DNA of 40,117 nt from an uncultured Clostridia bacterium (GTDB lineage: Bacteria; Bacillota; Clostridia; Christensenellales; UBA1242): positions 1 through 40,117 of the forward strand of contig CALWOU010000011.1 in assembly GCA_944383245.1 (NCBI GenBank), written 5' to 3'. The first letter of the stretch is position 1, and each line of letters opens with the position of its first letter. Shown here piece by piece: positions 5,340 to 25,819 of this stretch. The notes below the pieces were generated by a model. That model ran no database searches and was not told where the DNA came from. It was given only the letters and a program-made list of their open reading frames with translations. The position numbers were made by a program, and so were the translations under genes.

Positions 5340-5924
5340 TTAAAATTTGTTTCGAATTAGACCAACTACTTTTCCTAAAATATTAACTTGGCTTGTAATG
5401 ATAGGGCGCATATAAGGATTTTCTGGTTGCAATCTGAAATAGCCATTTTCTTTGTAAAAACGCTTAACAGTAGCTTCATTTTCAATTAAACACGCCACAA
5501 TTTCGCCATTATTTGCCACATCTTGCTTTGAAATAACAACATAATCTCCAGATAAAATGCCCGCATTTATCATACTATCGCCTTTAACTTTAAGAATGAA
5601 TAAATTACTCCCTTTAAATAAATTTTCATTAAATAAAAACTTATCAATAAGATTTTCTTCTGCGAGAATAGGGGCGCCCGCTGCAATTTCGCCTATAACA
5701 GGTATCGAAACACTATTAACCGATTTATCAGTTAACTCTATAGCACGATTTTTATTTCCATCTCTAACAATTTTTCCTGCATCTTCCAACTTTTTTAGAT
5801 GGTAAACAACGCTAGACGTTGAATCTAGTTTAACATAATTACAAATCTCTCTAATAGAAGGAGGGTAACCATTAGAACTAATAAATTTAACTATAAAATC
5901 ATACACAATTTCTGTTTTATCCAT
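5340..5924 (-). CDS. lexA: LexA, SOS-response repressor
   Basis: LexA represses the SOS regulon and cleaves itself when RecA filaments form on damaged DNA. The 194 aa sequence has an N-terminal winged helix (about 1-65, with PPSIREICNYV as the start of the DNA-reading part), the Ala82-Gly83 cleavage bond in EIAAGAP, and the catalytic dyad Ser117 (KGDSM) and Lys154 (ATVKRF). The gene has an AGGAG ribosome-binding site and its own promoter overlapped by a near-consensus SOS box at 5967-5980, so it is autoregulated. It follows a tyrosine recombinase gene on the same strand with a 198-nt gap. Confidence 0.97.
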   Translation of the reverse strand: MDKTEIVYDFIVKFISSNGYPPSIREICNYVKLDSTSSVVYHLKKLEDAGKIVRDGNKNRAIELTDKSVNSVSIPVIGEIAAGAPILAEENLIDKFLFNENLFKGSNLFILKVKGDSMINAGILSGDYVVISKQDVANNGEIVACLIENEATVKRFYKENGYFRLQPENPYMRPIITSQVNILGKVVGLIRNKF

Positions 5925-6122: not shown

Positions 6123-7169
6123 TTAGTCTTGTTTTAATTTAACTTTTCCAGCTACTGAACGTCTAACATCATCATCAATTGCTGCGTAGTGTTTTTTAGT
6201 TGTGTTAACGTCTTTATGACCTAAAACTTCGGCAACTATATAAATATCATTTGTTTCGTGATAAAGATTTGTGCCATAGGTGGAGCGGAGTTTGTGTGGG
6301 GTAATATGTTTAAGTGGAGTTGCCACTAACGCATATTTTTTTACTAAATACTCCATACTGCGCACCATCATACGTTTGTTTTGAGATGATAAAAACAATG
6401 CGCGTTCTTCTTTTGGAACGTTTAATGTGTCGCGCCAAGCGAGATATTGTTTTAAAACATTGGCTGTATCTTCACCAAAATATAAAATAACTTGATTGCC
6501 ACCTTTTCGTGTAACTCTAAACGAATTTAAGCTGAAATTTATATCATCAACGTTGAGTCCAACGCATTCGCTTACACGTATTCCTGTGGTTAAAAATAGT
6601 GAAATTATTGCATTGTCACGCACTTTGAATTTTTCGTTATATTTCTTTTGGTGTTCGCTAAATCCATTTAAGGTTTCGCACGAGTAGAGTAGTTCGGCAG
6701 TTTCTTGAGGTTCAAGTCGAATGATTGGTTTTTCGTGAAGTTTTGGCGATTTAACCTTACTTGCCACGTTTGCTTTTATCATATCTTTATTGAAAAAATA
6801 CTTGAAAAATGCGCGCAAAGTGGATAGTTTTCTTAGTTTTCCGCGCTCGCTATTAGTGAAAACTTCGCCATTGTCTTTGTCGTAATACGATAAATATGCC
6901 AAAAATCTCTCGATTGTTTGTGCGTCAATCCCGTCGATATCAGACATTGTGATAGACTTAATTTCTTTACCATAAAACGCGGTTTCATATGTAACCAAAT
7001 AATTGAAAAACAATTTTAAATCAACCGCATAATTTAGGCGAGTGAGTGGGGTGGTGGTATCTTGAATGCCTATGAAAAACACACTGCAAAATGCTGGCAA
7101 ATCGGCTAGCATTTCGTTTAATTTACGCATATTGTTGCGATTTCTATCTAAATAATAGTTGTTTGACAT
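6123..7169 (-). CDS. XerS-sized tyrosine recombinase
   Basis: 348 aa site-specific tyrosine recombinase. The catalytic set is complete: R198 (TGIRVSE), K222 (TRKGG), H292 and R295 (PHKLRSTYG), H318 (LGHKD) and nucleophile Y328 (KKHYAAI). The N-terminal core-binding SAM-like domain spans about 35-135. The length and the extra segment before the catalytic domain (about 160-183) are closer to the single-protein chromosome-dimer resolvase XerS (about 356 aa) than to XerC/XerD (about 295-305 aa). It has an AAGGAT ribosome-binding site and its own promoter. Repeat motifs shared with the intergenic region at 8.8-9.9 kb lie in that promoter. No phage genes are near, so a housekeeping resolvase is favoured over a prophage integrase, but the exact role is inference. 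Confidence 0.85.
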   Translation of the reverse strand: MSNNYYLDRNRNNMRKLNEMLADLPAFCSVFFIGIQDTTTPLTRLNYAVDLKLFFNYLVTYETAFYGKEIKSITMSDIDGIDAQTIERFLAYLSYYDKDNGEVFTNSERGKLRKLSTLRAFFKYFFNKDMIKANVASKVKSPKLHEKPIIRLEPQETAELLYSCETLNGFSEHQKKYNEKFKVRDNAIISLFLTTGIRVSECVGLNVDDINFSLNSFRVTRKGGNQVILYFGEDTANVLKQYLAWRDTLNVPKEERALFLSSQNKRMMVRSMEYLVKKYALVATPLKHITPHKLRSTYGTNLYHETNDIYIVAEVLGHKDVNTTKKHYAAIDDDVRRSVAGKVKLKQD

Positions 7170-7215: not shown

Positions 7216-7227
7216 TGTAAACTAGTA
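7216..7227 (+). repeat. 12-bp repeat TGTAAACTAGTA (copy 2)
   Basis: Exact inverted partner of the element at 5120-5131. The two copies flank lexA and the recombinase gene in opposite orientation. Here it starts two bases after the -10 box of the recombinase promoter, over the predicted transcription start. Confidence 0.5.
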
Positions 7228-7229
7228 CT

Positions 7230-7258
7230 ATTATATCATATCTTTGCGTAAAAAACAA
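7230..7258 (-). promoter_or_regulatory. Promoter of the tyrosine recombinase gene
   Basis: On the minus strand TTGTTT (7253-7258), a 17-bp spacer and a perfect TATAAT (7230-7235). The spacer is made of the 17-bp motif that recurs at 8856-8872 and, in variant form, at 9882-9915. Binding of a protein to that motif would block this promoter. Confidence 0.7.
7238..7254 (-). repeat. 17-bp repeat TTTTTACGCAAAGATAT (copy A)
   Basis: On the minus strand this 17-mer is identical to 8856-8872 (plus strand). It also resembles both arms of the hairpin at 9882-9915 (TTTTGCGCAAAGAT). The similarity to the right hairpin arm extends a further ten bases (GATATAATAG here, GATATATAAG there). Confidence 0.75.
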
Positions 7259-7288
7259 ATGATTTTACACTATATTAATATATTTTAT

Positions 7289-7318
7289 TTGACATATGTG
7301 GTTAATATTTGTTAGAAT
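7289..7318 (+). promoter_or_regulatory. serS promoter
   Basis: A perfect TTGACA (7289-7294), an 18-bp spacer and TAGAAT (7313-7318). It overlaps the longer TTG-initiated reading frame that starts at 7309, which supports the downstream ATG at 7342 as the true start. Confidence 0.78.
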
Positions 7319-7341
7319 ATTGCGTATATAAAGAGGTAGGT

Positions 7342-8631
7342 ATGATTGATATAAATTTAATAAGAACTAATCCAGATAAAGTGAGAAAGAACATAAAAAA
7401 GAAATTTCAAGATAGTAAACTTCATTTAGTGGACGATGTGCTTGAAATGGATTCACAAATTCGCGCTCTAAAACAAGAGGGTGATAGTTTGCGTGCAGAA
7501 AGAAACACAATGTCTAGCAAAATTGGTGCATTGATGAAAGAAAAACGAATTGATGAGGCAAATGAAATTAAAGCGCAAGTTGTGAAAAATAATGAGAGAA
7601 TTAGTGTCATTGAAAAGGATGTTAGCGAACTTGAAAGCAAAATAAATAAAGCGATGATGACAATTCCAAACATCATTGCGGACGACGTTCCAATCGGCGA
7701 AGATGATAGCAAAAACGTGCAAGATAGGGTTTATGGCGAACCTATCGTTCCAGATTTTGAAATTCCTTATCACGCAGATATTATTGAAAAGTTGGACGGG
7801 GCAGACTTTGCAGCGGCACGTAGAACTTCAGGTCAAGGATTTTATTACCTAACGGGTGATGTTGCGCGTTTGCATTCTGCAATTCTTGCCTATGCACGCG
7901 ATTTTATGATAAACAAAGGATTTACTTATTGTATTCCGCCATTTATGATTCATAGCAGTGTTGTGAATGGTGTTATGAGTTTTGAAGAAATGGAAAATAT
8001 GATGTACAAAATCGAGGGCGAGGACTTATATCTTATAGGAACTAGTGAACATAGTATGATAGGTAGGTTTATGAACACAATCATACCAGAGGAAAAACTG
8101 CCACTATGTTTGACCTCGTATAGTCCTTGTTTTAGAAAAGAAATAGGCGCGCACGGTATTGAAGAAAGGGGAATTTATCGCGTACATCAATTTGAAAAGC
8201 AAGAGATGATTGTTATTTGCAAACCAGAGGAAAGCGAGGCTTGGTATAACAAAATGTGGAACTATTCGGTTGAACTTTTTAGGGCAATGAATATTCCTGT
8301 GAGAACCCTTGTTTGTTGCTCTGGAGATTTGGCAGATTTGAAATATAGGAGTTTGGATGTTGAGGCGTGGAGTCCAAGGCAGAAAAAGTATTTTGAAGTT
8401 TGTTCGTGCAGTAATTTAACCGACGCGCAAGCAAGAAGATTAAAGATTAGATACAAGAAATCAGACGGCACAAATGAACTTGCACACACTTTAAATAACA
8501 CAGTTGTTGCACCTCCAAGAATGTTAATCGCATTCCTTGAAAATAATCTTAACCGTGATGGAAGTGTGAATATTCCAGAAGTTTTGCAACCATATATGGG
8601 CGGAATGAAGGTCATCACACCTAAAAAATAG
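7342..8631 (+). CDS. serS: Seryl-tRNA synthetase
   Basis: Class II synthetase charging tRNA-Ser with serine. The 429 aa protein has the N-terminal coiled-coil arm that grips the long variable arm of tRNA-Ser (about residues 30-105). The class II core follows, with motif 2 beginning at FRKE and ending HQFEKQE, and motif 3 at PPRMLIAFLE. The GTSEHSM segment is the serine pocket. The FRKEIGAHGIEERG form of motif 2 differs from the usual FRSEAG and is of the kind seen in a subset of clostridial SerRS. The ATG at 7342 follows AGAGGTAGG and lies 24 nt after the -10 box. It is the only plus-strand gene between rnhA and the PBP gene. Confidence 0.96.
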   Translation: MIDINLIRTNPDKVRKNIKKKFQDSKLHLVDDVLEMDSQIRALKQEGDSLRAERNTMSSKIGALMKEKRIDEANEIKAQVVKNNERISVIEKDVSELESKINKAMMTIPNIIADDVPIGEDDSKNVQDRVYGEPIVPDFEIPYHADIIEKLDGADFAAARRTSGQGFYYLTGDVARLHSAILAYARDFMINKGFTYCIPPFMIHSSVVNGVMSFEEMENMMYKIEGEDLYLIGTSEHSMIGRFMNTIIPEEKLPLCLTSYSPCFRKEIGAHGIEERGIYRVHQFEKQEMIVICKPEESEAWYNKMWNYSVELFRAMNIPVRTLVCCSGDLADLKYRSLDVEAWSPRQKKYFEVCSCSNLTDAQARRLKIRYKKSDGTNELAHTLNNTVVAPPRMLIAFLENNLNRDGSVNIPEVLQPYMGGMKVITPKK

Positions 8632-8673
8632 GGTAGAACATAAGATTAGTAACTAATCAATTTATATGAACAT

Positions 8674-8724
8674 AAACTAACCGATTTTTAAACATAATTG
8701 TTTTTAATTGGTTAGTTTTTTCTT
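8674..8724 (+). terminator. serS terminator
   Basis: A 13-bp stem with one G-U pair forms between 8674-8686 and 8706-8718, with a long AT loop, and runs into TTTTTTCTTTT. It lies 42 nt after the serS stop. Confidence 0.75.
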
Positions 8725-8855
8725 TTAACCGCAAATTAAGAATGTTTTTTATATCTATATTATAATAGAATTTAGAATTTAATAATTTCAACATTTTATT
8801 TAATAAATTGTTTCAAGATTATTCAATAAATTATGTTAATTTTAAAATCTATAGG

Positions 8856-8872
8856 TTTTTACGCAAAGATAT
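8856..8872 (+). repeat. 17-bp repeat TTTTTACGCAAAGATAT (copy B)
   Basis: Identical to the minus-strand sequence at 7238-7254, so copies A and B are inverted repeats that flank serS. Its last bases start an inverted repeat ATATCACT/AGTGATAT reaching to about 8927. Confidence 0.75.
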
Positions 8873-9403
8873 CACTATTTTTGATAAACAACATTTTTCG
8901 TGCAATAACAAGAATAAGTGATATATTTGTTTATAATATTTGCCCGGTTTAGGCATATTTTAGATAATGTAAAACTAACTTAATGATATATTACATATAG
9001 AGTAAACGAATAAATTAAAGTGAAAATTTTTATTAAAAAAAGTAGTAAGAAAATACTAACTGCTAAAATGCTCTCAGACGAAATGGATTAAAAAAGATAG
9101 GGAAATTGGTCAACTAATTTTTAAAATTATTACATTGAATTTTAAAAAATGTAATTTAAACAATCATAATTGAAATATGATGTGTGATAATTCGTAAAGA
9201 CAAAAACTAAATTCAAAATTTTAAAAATTAAGATAAGGAAACTATTAGCCAAATTTTTTAAAATCGCTCTGAGAGCAGATTTCAGAATTGTTTTTAAGTT
9301 CGTTAAGATATAAATAATATATATAAAATTTAAAATAATATGTTAGTTAACAAAAAGTAACAAATTAGTCAGAATATGAAATATAAGTTATAGGTTATTA
9401 ATA

Positions 9404-9720
9404 AAATATTGATACAATAAATGACACACATATCTAAAGTTATCACAAAATTTCAATGAACAAACTATCAAGCAAAATTTTCAGAATGCGTCTAGTGACA
9501 GAATATCATATCAGATAAATAAAGTATTTAGTAAATTATTTTGAATGCGTCAAGTGGCAAAATTTTATGCTAATAAAATATTTAAAAAATTAAATGAATA
9601 AAATATCAACCAAAGCAAAACAAATTTGTCTGGTAACAGAATTTTAAAACAAATTGTAATTTGCAAATTGGATGAATAAACTATTAACTAAAGTTAGACG
9701 AATGCGCGTGATAGCAAAAT
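9404..9720 (+). repeat. Degenerate long direct repeats (four clear copies, a fifth weaker)
   Basis: The composite unit is TGAATAAACTATYAAC, about ten bases, then GAATGCGTCTAGTGGCAAAAT. Second halves start at 9484, 9543, 9622 and 9700. First halves start at 9457, 9516, 9595 and 9673, in every case exactly 27 bases earlier. The period is therefore 59, 79 and 78 bp. A more decayed copy precedes them at about 9404-9451. The units agree at roughly 60-85% of positions, so they are old or under loose constraint. They are too degenerate and too widely spaced for a CRISPR array. Confidence 0.65.
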
Positions 9721-9770
9721 TTCGTGTATTTTATAAGCAAAATTATAACAAAAAGATAAATAATACTATA

Positions 9771-9954
9771 TGTGGACAAATTTGCATATATAACACAATA
9801 TAAAGTAAAATTTAACGATTTAATGACGAATTTGTGGAAAACTAAGGCGATATCCACAAGATTTTAACCCAATTCTGCCTCATCTTTGCGCAAAAGAAGG
9901 CTTTTGCGCAAAGATAGATATATAAGTTTTCCACTCTGCCCTTATCTATCCACA
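9771..9954. other. Cluster of DnaA-box-like nonamers
   Basis: Five sites lie in 184 bp, compared with TTATCCACA: TTGTCCACA (9771-9779, minus), TTTTCCACA (9833-9841, minus), ATATCCACA (9850-9858, plus), TTTTCCACT (9927-9935, plus) and CTATCCACA (9946-9954, plus). Four differ at one base and one at two. They surround the hairpin at 9882-9915 and precede an AT-rich stretch. DnaA binding is plausible from sequence but unproven. Confidence 0.45.
9882..9915. repeat. Perfect 15-bp inverted repeat with TTTGCGCAAA in each arm
   Basis: ATCTTTGCGCAAAAG (9882-9896), loop AAGG, then its exact complement CTTTTGCGCAAAGAT (9901-9915). Each arm itself holds the palindrome TTTGCGCAAA. No T tract follows, so it is not an ordinary terminator. 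The arms match the 17-bp motif at 7238 and 8856 with A replaced by G. Confidence 0.85.
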
Positions 9955-10202
9955 CACGTTGAGTTTGGTTTTTTTACTCCATACATTAGTTTTATTTTAA
10001 TTATTTTAATGTTTTAATTTTGGTTTATTATATTGATTAAAAAACTATCCAGCAATCAAAAAATAAATTAAATTAATTTATAACAATTTAACTATATTCA
10101 TATTATTATAGGTTTAACCCTGCTCTAGTTATTAATTGGCTCTATTTTATTAAATAAACATTTTATTTACTTTTTAATTAATAATGATACTATAATTATA
10201 TT

Positions 10203-24904: not shown

Positions 24905-25819
24905 TTAAAACACCAATTCAAAAAGCGCATTTTTTGGACTAATTTCGCCTGACTTTATCTTATAGTCTAAATCGACGTATTTTCTATACAAATTGATATA
25001 AAATTTAATACCATTTTTCTTAACATTTTGCCTTGCCACTTTTATTGCATAAGGTTTTATATTTAAAATTTTAGATAGTTCCTCATCATTTTTAGATATA
25101 GAAATATAAAACATTCGCCTAAAATATCTGCCCATATACGAATAAATTTCCTGCACAGATTGCGATTTTAACATATTAGTGACCATTTTTTGATATGATG
25201 ATAAGTCCTTGTTGTCTATGGCATTGGTGAGCATATAAATAACATATTCTTGCGACTCACTAACAAGGTTTGTTACAATATCTAGTGTAATCACCTCATT
25301 ATCTACTGCATATGTTGATAATTTTCCCAATTCGTTGACAATCTTTTGCATATCTGAATTAGTTGCATCAATCAAAAAATCTAACGCGCGATTTTCTATT
25401 GATAGATTGTATTTGTATAGATAATTCATCACATACTTTTGAATGTCCGCCCTATCTAATTTTCCGCAGTCAATAGTTTCAGCGGACTTTAAATTGTTTG
25501 CATTTACGCAAGCAACAATCGTGCTTATTTCATCAAAATTATATGAATTAAGAAATTTAACAACCTCACTGCTAGGATTTACTAACACAACCAATCTATA
25601 ATCACTGCCAATTGGAAGAGTTGAAATCATAGCATCTATTTCATTTGGCTTTAATTTTTCCGCGTCAAGTTTAACAAAATTAAACTCATCAAAGTCTTTA
25701 ACCAAATAGTTTTTTAATGTAATGATAGATTGACGGATTAAAAAAACATCTTCCCCTACAATGTTATATAGTGGCAATACGTTTTCTTTAAGTTTTTTAT
25801 TCAATTCAATAAATTTCAT
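24905..25819 (-). CDS. holA: DNA polymerase III subunit delta
   Basis: 304 aa clamp-loader subunit that opens the sliding clamp. The sequence is divergent, as is usual for HolA. It has an N-terminal opening YNIVGEDVFLIRQSI and the family's middle segment DIQKYVMNYLYKYNLSIENRALDFLIDATNSDMQKIVNELGKL, shown here only as its start and end residues about 127-170. Position next to comEC and near rpsT supports the call. No ribosome-binding site is obvious before the ATG, and the gap to comEC is 126 nt. Confidence 0.9.
   Translation of the reverse strand: MKFIELNKKLKENVLPLYNIVGEDVFLIRQSIITLKNYLVKDFDEFNFVKLDAEKLKPNEIDAMISTLPIGSDYRLVVLVNPSSEVVKFLNSYNFDEISTIVACVNANNLKSAETIDCGKLDRADIQKYVMNYLYKYNLSIENRALDFLIDATNSDMQKIVNELGKLSTYAVDNEVITLDIVTNLVSESQEYVIYMLTNAIDNKDLSSYQKMVTNMLKSQSVQEIYSYMGRYFRRMFYISISKNDEELSKILNIKPYAIKVARQNVKKNGIKFYINLYRKYVDLDYKIKSGEISPKNALFELVF

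Follow-up and report, generated by a model that had tools for sequence, protein, structure and literature searches.

The 40,117-bp stretch of DNA analysed here (the window; contig CALWOU010000011.1 of GenBank assembly GCA_944383245.1, from an uncultured Clostridia bacterium) carries a single gene for a Xer-type, XerS-related tyrosine recombinase (6123–7169, minus strand; 348 amino acids (aa); PF00589, 107.4 bits) and, in its neighbourhood, a 34-bp palindrome (9882–9915) that we predict to be a dif site, given its place at the GC-skew maximum, related sites in other genomes and provirus insertions in relatives. The serS gene (7342–8631, plus strand; TIGR00414, 408.9 bits) lies between the two as a bystander, and the palindrome itself sits between the convergent serS and methionine gamma-lyase genes, within ∼1.7 kb of AT-rich intergenic DNA. 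Two lone copies of the palindrome arm accompany it, one in the recombinase promoter and one on the serS side of the palindrome. Since the recombinase is 97% identical to that of Candidatus Onthoplasma faecipullorum (L039), which is placed in Christensenellales, we use Onthoplasma as the genus label.

The catalytic set of the recombinase was assigned by motif to R198, K222, H292, R295, H318 and Y328. Its best NCBIfam model is XerS (NF003462) with 177.9 bits, compared to 152.2 bits for the XerA model, and by sequence XerA and XerH are its relatives in the PDB. A preliminary description of this DNA had called the protein XerS-sized, which agrees with its length and best model, although the score stays below the XerS cut-off of 267. 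We found the recombinase in 73 of 79 genomes (its own included), with one match in each except G025, G064 and G075. In a tree of 56 rows, it falls into a clade of its own of 27 rows (100/99), among them one genome from another order of the class (L168). Next to this clade stand L179 and L190, two rows that belong to a different family of the phylum and make up a sister clade of ∼340-aa recombinases, neither XerS nor part of the 27; beyond them follow the three rows that exceeded the XerS cut-off when 199 genomes were scanned, and these form a separate clade. Together, the 32 rows (27 + 2 + 3) are set apart (99/97) from the phylum's remaining Xer-like rows, which are untyped. A separate canonical XerC/XerD pair, which the preliminary description had named as fatal to its own proposal, did not emerge: the four other integrases of the genome reach at most 89.1 bits, far under the XerC and XerD cut-offs (335 for XerC, a model applied to this genome only), and no protein in any of the 79 genomes exceeded the cut-off for XerD, a strict model that did so in just four of 14 control genomes. 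Besides, the genome encodes FtsK with its gamma domain (PF09397, 88.3 bits) in a 1028-aa open frame.

The motif shared by the palindrome and the lone copies is rare. Exact copies of TTTTTACGCAAAGATAT lie at 7238–7254 (minus strand) and 8856–8872 (plus strand), and the hairpin ATCTTTGCGCAAAAG-AAGG-CTTTTGCGCAAAGAT at 9882–9915 is a perfect 15-4-15 inverted repeat, all precisely where they had been placed previously. TTTTRCGCAAAGAT occurs exactly four times in the window (two lone copies, two hairpin arms), with no further copies, as had likewise been noted; these four, all within 2.7 kb, are also the only ones in the whole assembly (1,166,297 bp, 43 contigs), where 0.047 copies are expected genome-wide from base composition and a reversed-pattern control gave no match. 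Random scatter over the genome, which would have spoken against the proposed role of the motif, is hence not seen. At up to three mismatches, 17 matches were seen in the window against 25.7 expected, so only near-exact copies are meaningful.

Among relatives, the exact motif is present in 29 of 33 other genomes of the genus, where it is mostly clustered, and in four of 45 genomes of other genera. It is missing from G003, G023, G027 and G017 of the genus. The first three have recombinases just 60–61% identical to that of the window, with a diverged site being present in G003 and G023; for G017, no recombinase match was obtained either. G008 and G024 possess the motif and gave no recombinase match, both assemblies being fragmented. 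The anticipated co-occurrence of motif and recombinase was thus observed, for the motif itself across the genus and for a related palindrome across the order. Conversely, a likeness over ten more bases between the promoter copy and the right arm, to which attention had been drawn, is lost in relatives.

We read the palindrome as ATCTTTGCGCAAAA-GAAGGC-TTTTGCGCAAAGAT, i.e. as two identical 14-bp arms around a 6-bp centre. It is readable as 15-4-15, too, because the outermost bases of the centre pair; the 6-bp centre is preferred because relatives conserve the arms but differ at these six positions. Of 32 named loci inspected at a fixed 6-bp spacing, 24 have a 14-6-14 palindrome, of which 22 are Onthoplasma-type and two (L066, L067) more distant, and eight do not (L042, L048, L054, L057, L064, L068, L069, L070), most of the Onthoplasma-type loci among these eight being short upstream. 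As this count fixed the spacing, the independent test was a search that permitted centres of 4–12 bp at 24 orthologue loci (22 from other genera and two distant ones from the same genus). Twenty-one of the 24 yielded a palindrome with a 6-bp centre upstream of the recombinase, which ranked first or tied first in 20 and third in L127. Thirteen of these 21 order-level sites differ from the Onthoplasma arms by 0–6 mismatches over both arms, better than all three shuffles per locus (at least 7). The common order-level form is AACTATTCGCAAAA-nACAAn-TTTTRCGAATAGTT, and arm changes between species are mostly symmetrical. Inverted-repeat counts made without a consensus were noisy both upstream and downstream of the recombinase gene.

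The surroundings of the palindrome are conserved as well: in Onthoplasma-type loci, TGTGGA/TCCACA-type elements occur on both sides (9832–9955 in the window). A G-rich stretch also flanks the site, in the same interval and its equivalents in relatives. Beside the palindrome, we also observed four degenerate ∼54-bp direct repeats in AT-rich sequence, spaced 59–79 bp apart (9456–9725).

The preliminary description had suggested checking whether the motif lies near the GC-skew maximum, and it does. The cumulative skew peaks at 9847 in the window, 35 bp from the palindrome, and on four long contigs of relatives the distance is 13–429 bp: 13 bp on a 276-kb contig (maximum 139445, site start 139458), 429 bp on a 196-kb contig (96097, 96526), 33 bp on a 199-kb contig (69416, site 69449–69482) and 15 bp on a 149-kb contig (116753, 116768). 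Coding-strand bias flips near the site on these four contigs. Among 19 shorter Onthoplasma-type loci (12–15 kb), 14 have their maximum no more than 500 bp from the site; the median over all 19 is 35 bp. Stretches of 11–20 kb are too short to judge skew, and longer contigs of other genera were therefore sampled in five genomes (G043, G047, G076, G077, G078). In G047, G077 and G043, the skew turns from plus to minus across the orthologous site. The same change is seen in two single-contig genomes: G078 (2.42 Mb), with a local maximum at 25634, the site at 25322–25355 and the reverse change between the 1.2-Mb and 1.35-Mb samples, and G076 (2.56 Mb), where it falls between 2.262 and 2.290 Mb (site at 2,270,626) and the reverse change between 0.85 and 0.95 Mb. 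The words that show strand bias in the direction of dif are rich in G (AGGAGAG, 75:1; GGGTAG, 129:18), and no FtsK-orienting polar sequence (KOPS) motif could be picked out among them.

Further evidence comes from viruses. At least five same-genus genomes have microvirus proviruses at the orthologous site (some loci end short of its far side), with both junctions seen in four and the left one in the fifth. G022 holds two in tandem (5171 and 5173 bp), with a Phage_F capsid protein (565.5 bits) and a REP_ORF2-G2P replication protein (69.1 bits) by Pfam; G029, whose provirus likewise encodes a Phage_F capsid protein (571.4 bits), G006 and G023 hold one apiece, and in G014 the left junction is on a contig that ends within the capsid gene. 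The insertions map to L155 (G022:C10:24383-34726), to L274 (7467–13296), to L281 and L282 (reverse strand) and to L157 (from 1274). In all five genomes, the left junction consists of the left arm, the centre and sequence unlike the right arm, while the right junction, in four, has left arm, centre and the true right arm. The segment shared by both junctions terminates on the right at the end of the centre, or one (G029) or three bases beyond it (G023), and extends left of the arm by two (G029), three (G006), 16 (G023) or 39 bases (G022). Since the junctions share this segment, crossover is placed within left arm plus centre (in G022 and G023 possibly in shared flank) and, because tyrosine recombinases work that way, in the centre. 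The latter is identical at both junctions and varies by host (GCCTTC, CAATAC, CACTTC, TACAGA). On another contig (L275), G014 shows an undisrupted site beside the left flank of the host itself, as might be expected if only part of the population carried the provirus. The host's recombinase may have integrated these phages; no integrase-like frame is among the listed open frames of the G022 provirus units. The proviruses of G022, G029 and G006 bring their own version of the left flank, with TGTGGA or CGTGGA, and that of G023 just a G-rich stretch. A viral collection contained no exact match to left arm plus NNCTTC. In the best 80 of at least 599 related microvirus contigs, we counted five arm matches (four in L195, one in L236) compared to one in shuffled sequence, and L195 is identical to the G029 locus L063 over 8047 bases. 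Regarding the invertible or integrative element that had been considered for this locus, none was seen in the window itself; the proviruses occupy the orthologous site in relatives.

The lone copies look like half-sites. One (half-site A, 7240–7253, minus strand) fills the spacer of a promoter-like sequence of the recombinase gene (7230–7258, minus strand; −35 TTGTTT at 7253–7258, 17-bp spacer, −10 TATAAT at 7230–7235), as had been described, and is a predicted autoregulatory operator. The other (half-site B, 8857–8870, plus strand) lies ∼1 kb from dif on its serS side, faces it, and is a predicted accessory site. In 24 of 27 loci of relatives, the 300 bp preceding the recombinase gene include a same-strand copy with at most one mismatch; the remaining three have an exact copy on the opposite strand. 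Of the 24 same-strand loci, 21 have a −10-like hexamer whose first base is exactly 18 nt away from that of the motif. Near dif, there are one to four half-sites per locus, and all copies within 1.1 kb face it (38/38 in 22 relatives' loci; 30/30 on the serS side and 8/8 on the far side, the latter in five loci). Of note, half-sites come as direct pairs ∼40 bp apart (about four helical turns) on both sides of dif in L047, L049 and L065. In other genera and deep lines of the same genus, seven of 13 loci whose dif is >380 bp from the gene have a copy of the local arm in the promoter, counted in either orientation, as against none of eight with dif at most 175 bp away. Extra local-arm copies total 17 in these loci versus eight in shuffles, which leaves only their promoter positions telling. 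This pattern suggests that the recombinase may repress its own gene, via dif where the latter overlaps the promoter region and otherwise via a half-site.

Taken together, the palindrome is very probably the dif site of the adjacent, single XerS-related recombinase, with a predicted role in chromosome dimer resolution, and the lone arms are likely to be half-sites for self-repression and assembly. It is the position at the flip of G/C bias and the small phages inserted in five relatives that point to a chromosome-separation site. The previous proposal that the motif is the recombinase's binding or crossover site is supported, with the correction that the hairpin alone has the two arms and 6-bp centre of a full crossover site, the lone copies being half-sites. 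In the mechanism that we infer from sequence, each of the two 14-bp arms would be bound by one recombinase monomer, two dif sites would come together once FtsK has moved the terminus to the septum, and strand exchange would take place inside the 6-bp centre under FtsK control. The promoter half-site would repress the recombinase gene, and the inward-pointing half-sites might act as accessory elements in assembly around dif.

Certain observations weigh against this interpretation. G050, G054, G065 and G075 encode XerD-like proteins at 207–280 bits. (G065 has no recombinase match at E 1e-20 and may rely on another system.) No palindrome was found in L117 (713 bp upstream covered), L121 and L124 of the 24 orthologue loci, and in eight of the 21 order-level sites the 7–8 mismatches to the Onthoplasma arms equal the best shuffles (7–9), such that these weaker sites rest on the 6-bp spacing and on their own symmetry. 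G018 and G033 also have single motif copies 17–40 kb away from dif. Skew maxima lie 523 bp (one locus) or 7–10 kb (four loci) off the site in the other five of 19 Onthoplasma-type loci, and within 1 kb of it in only six of 21 loci of 11–20 kb, mostly from other genera; a sample at 0.1 Mb in G076 is weakly positive where a minus is expected. Lastly, the site is on only one of the 80 microvirus contigs, and that one consists of host chromosome plus provirus.

Other explanations have been considered for the same features. The motif might be an operator of another regulator, e.g. LexA, whose gene (5340–5924) adjoins that of the recombinase, with the hairpin as its high-affinity palindromic version; the promoter overlap of the motif resembles an operator, and the arm holds the palindrome TTTGCGCAAA. 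We regard this as highly improbable, as an SOS operator would be expected at other genes, too, yet the only four exact copies in the genome are all at the recombinase locus, related sites adjoin the recombinase in other families, and an operator leaves both the skew-maximum position and the joined proviruses unexplained. Still less probable is a replication origin, despite the conserved, DnaA-box-like TGTGGA/TCCACA elements (TTATCCAC-like) on both sides of the hairpin and the ∼1.7 kb of AT-rich intergenic DNA: a site at the skew maximum marks the terminus, and the origin-type sign change is ∼1.2–1.4 Mb off in G078 and G076, each of them a single contig. We give equally little credit to the idea that the hairpin, lying as it does between serS and the methionine gamma-lyase gene, terminates transcription or is an RNA structure. 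A perfect inverted repeat between convergent genes would suit a terminator; however, neither arm is followed by a T run, there is no Rfam match at gathering score, and lone arms in the promoter and elsewhere, as well as the provirus junctions, would remain unaccounted for. These three candidates were rejected based on copy rarity, skew maximum, provirus junctions and the absent T run.

A closer competitor accepts the hairpin as dif and regards the lone copies as relics, left behind by sites since lost, and not as functional half-sites. The G022 proviruses hold one arm, centre and left flank and no further exact copy, and the number of half-sites near dif is variable (one to four), both in keeping with relics. 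However, one would not expect relics to show the uniform orientation of the copies within 1.1 kb (38/38) or the fixed −10 offset (21/24), and promoter half-sites occur in 7/13 loci with a distant dif (>380 bp) and 0/8 with a close one (≤175 bp). We therefore deem relics unlikely, and favour dif with half-sites.

As a kind, single-recombinase Xer/dif systems are known; the clade, the site design and the half-site array are what we predict to be new here. None of the titles and abstract openings of the literature matches listed describes Xer/dif in Christensenellales. The order thereby obtains a predicted chromosome dimer resolution system, comprising a gene, a site and a precise strand-crossing prediction. 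Its near-symmetric site could offer a clean setting in which to learn how one recombinase alone decides on strand order and orientation, the in-site proviruses could serve as natural att sites, and the half-sites would make autoregulation and accessory control approachable with one protein. More tentatively, and with somewhat less than even confidence, the polarised, dif-facing half-site array and the promoter half-site within the genus might let the recombinase sense its own dose and be loaded or aligned on dif without separate helper proteins. If so, this would be an order-wide Xer clade with a near-perfect palindromic dif and an accessory system for which the recombinase itself supplies the parts.

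In comparison with known systems, the locus differs from XerCD/dif, which has two recombinases and different arms, in that its arms are identical and no XerD exceeds the cut-off. It rather has the features of single-recombinase Xer/dif: a conserved Xer protein with R-K-HxxR-H-Y and FtsK-gamma, no XerC/XerD pair, and a palindrome with a centre in the range of 6–11 bp at the skew maximum, with exceptions in short loci. Microvirus proviruses flanked by dif-type repeats are known from Bacteroidetes (BMVs) and Escherichia (gokushoviruses), where integration is attributed to the two-recombinase XerC/XerD dif (PMC3091885, PMC7062461); here, the site is that of a predicted single-recombinase system in Christensenellales. 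XerH/difH and archaeal XerA/dif resemble the present case as single Xer recombinases. Archaeal dif also has a 6-bp centre, and XerA is FtsK-independent by description (PMC5357621), whereas the window's genome carries FtsK-gamma. XerL/dif of Legionellales is a single-recombinase system with long uninterrupted inverted-repeat arms near the terminus whose site is used by an integrating element (PMC9765430). This likeness is one of description only, and in L. pneumophila the XerL gene and dif are >400 kb apart, whereas here they are neighbours, with half-sites. The closest parallel is XerS/difSL of streptococci and lactococci, likewise with one ∼350-aa recombinase encoded near its site. The window's recombinase scores best with the XerS model and groups with XerS (99/97), but it is under the XerS cut-off and in its own clade (100/99). 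Similarly, the 31-bp difSL is described as having arms that differ from each other and a centre of 11 bp (PMC5357621), while the present site has 34 bp, a 6-bp centre and identical arms. Hence, our sequence comparisons support the earlier view of a lone XerS-sized recombinase in Clostridia with its own dif-like site, though not as XerS/difSL proper: the system is predicted to work like XerS/difSL while standing outside it by the two features tested, model score and site centre.

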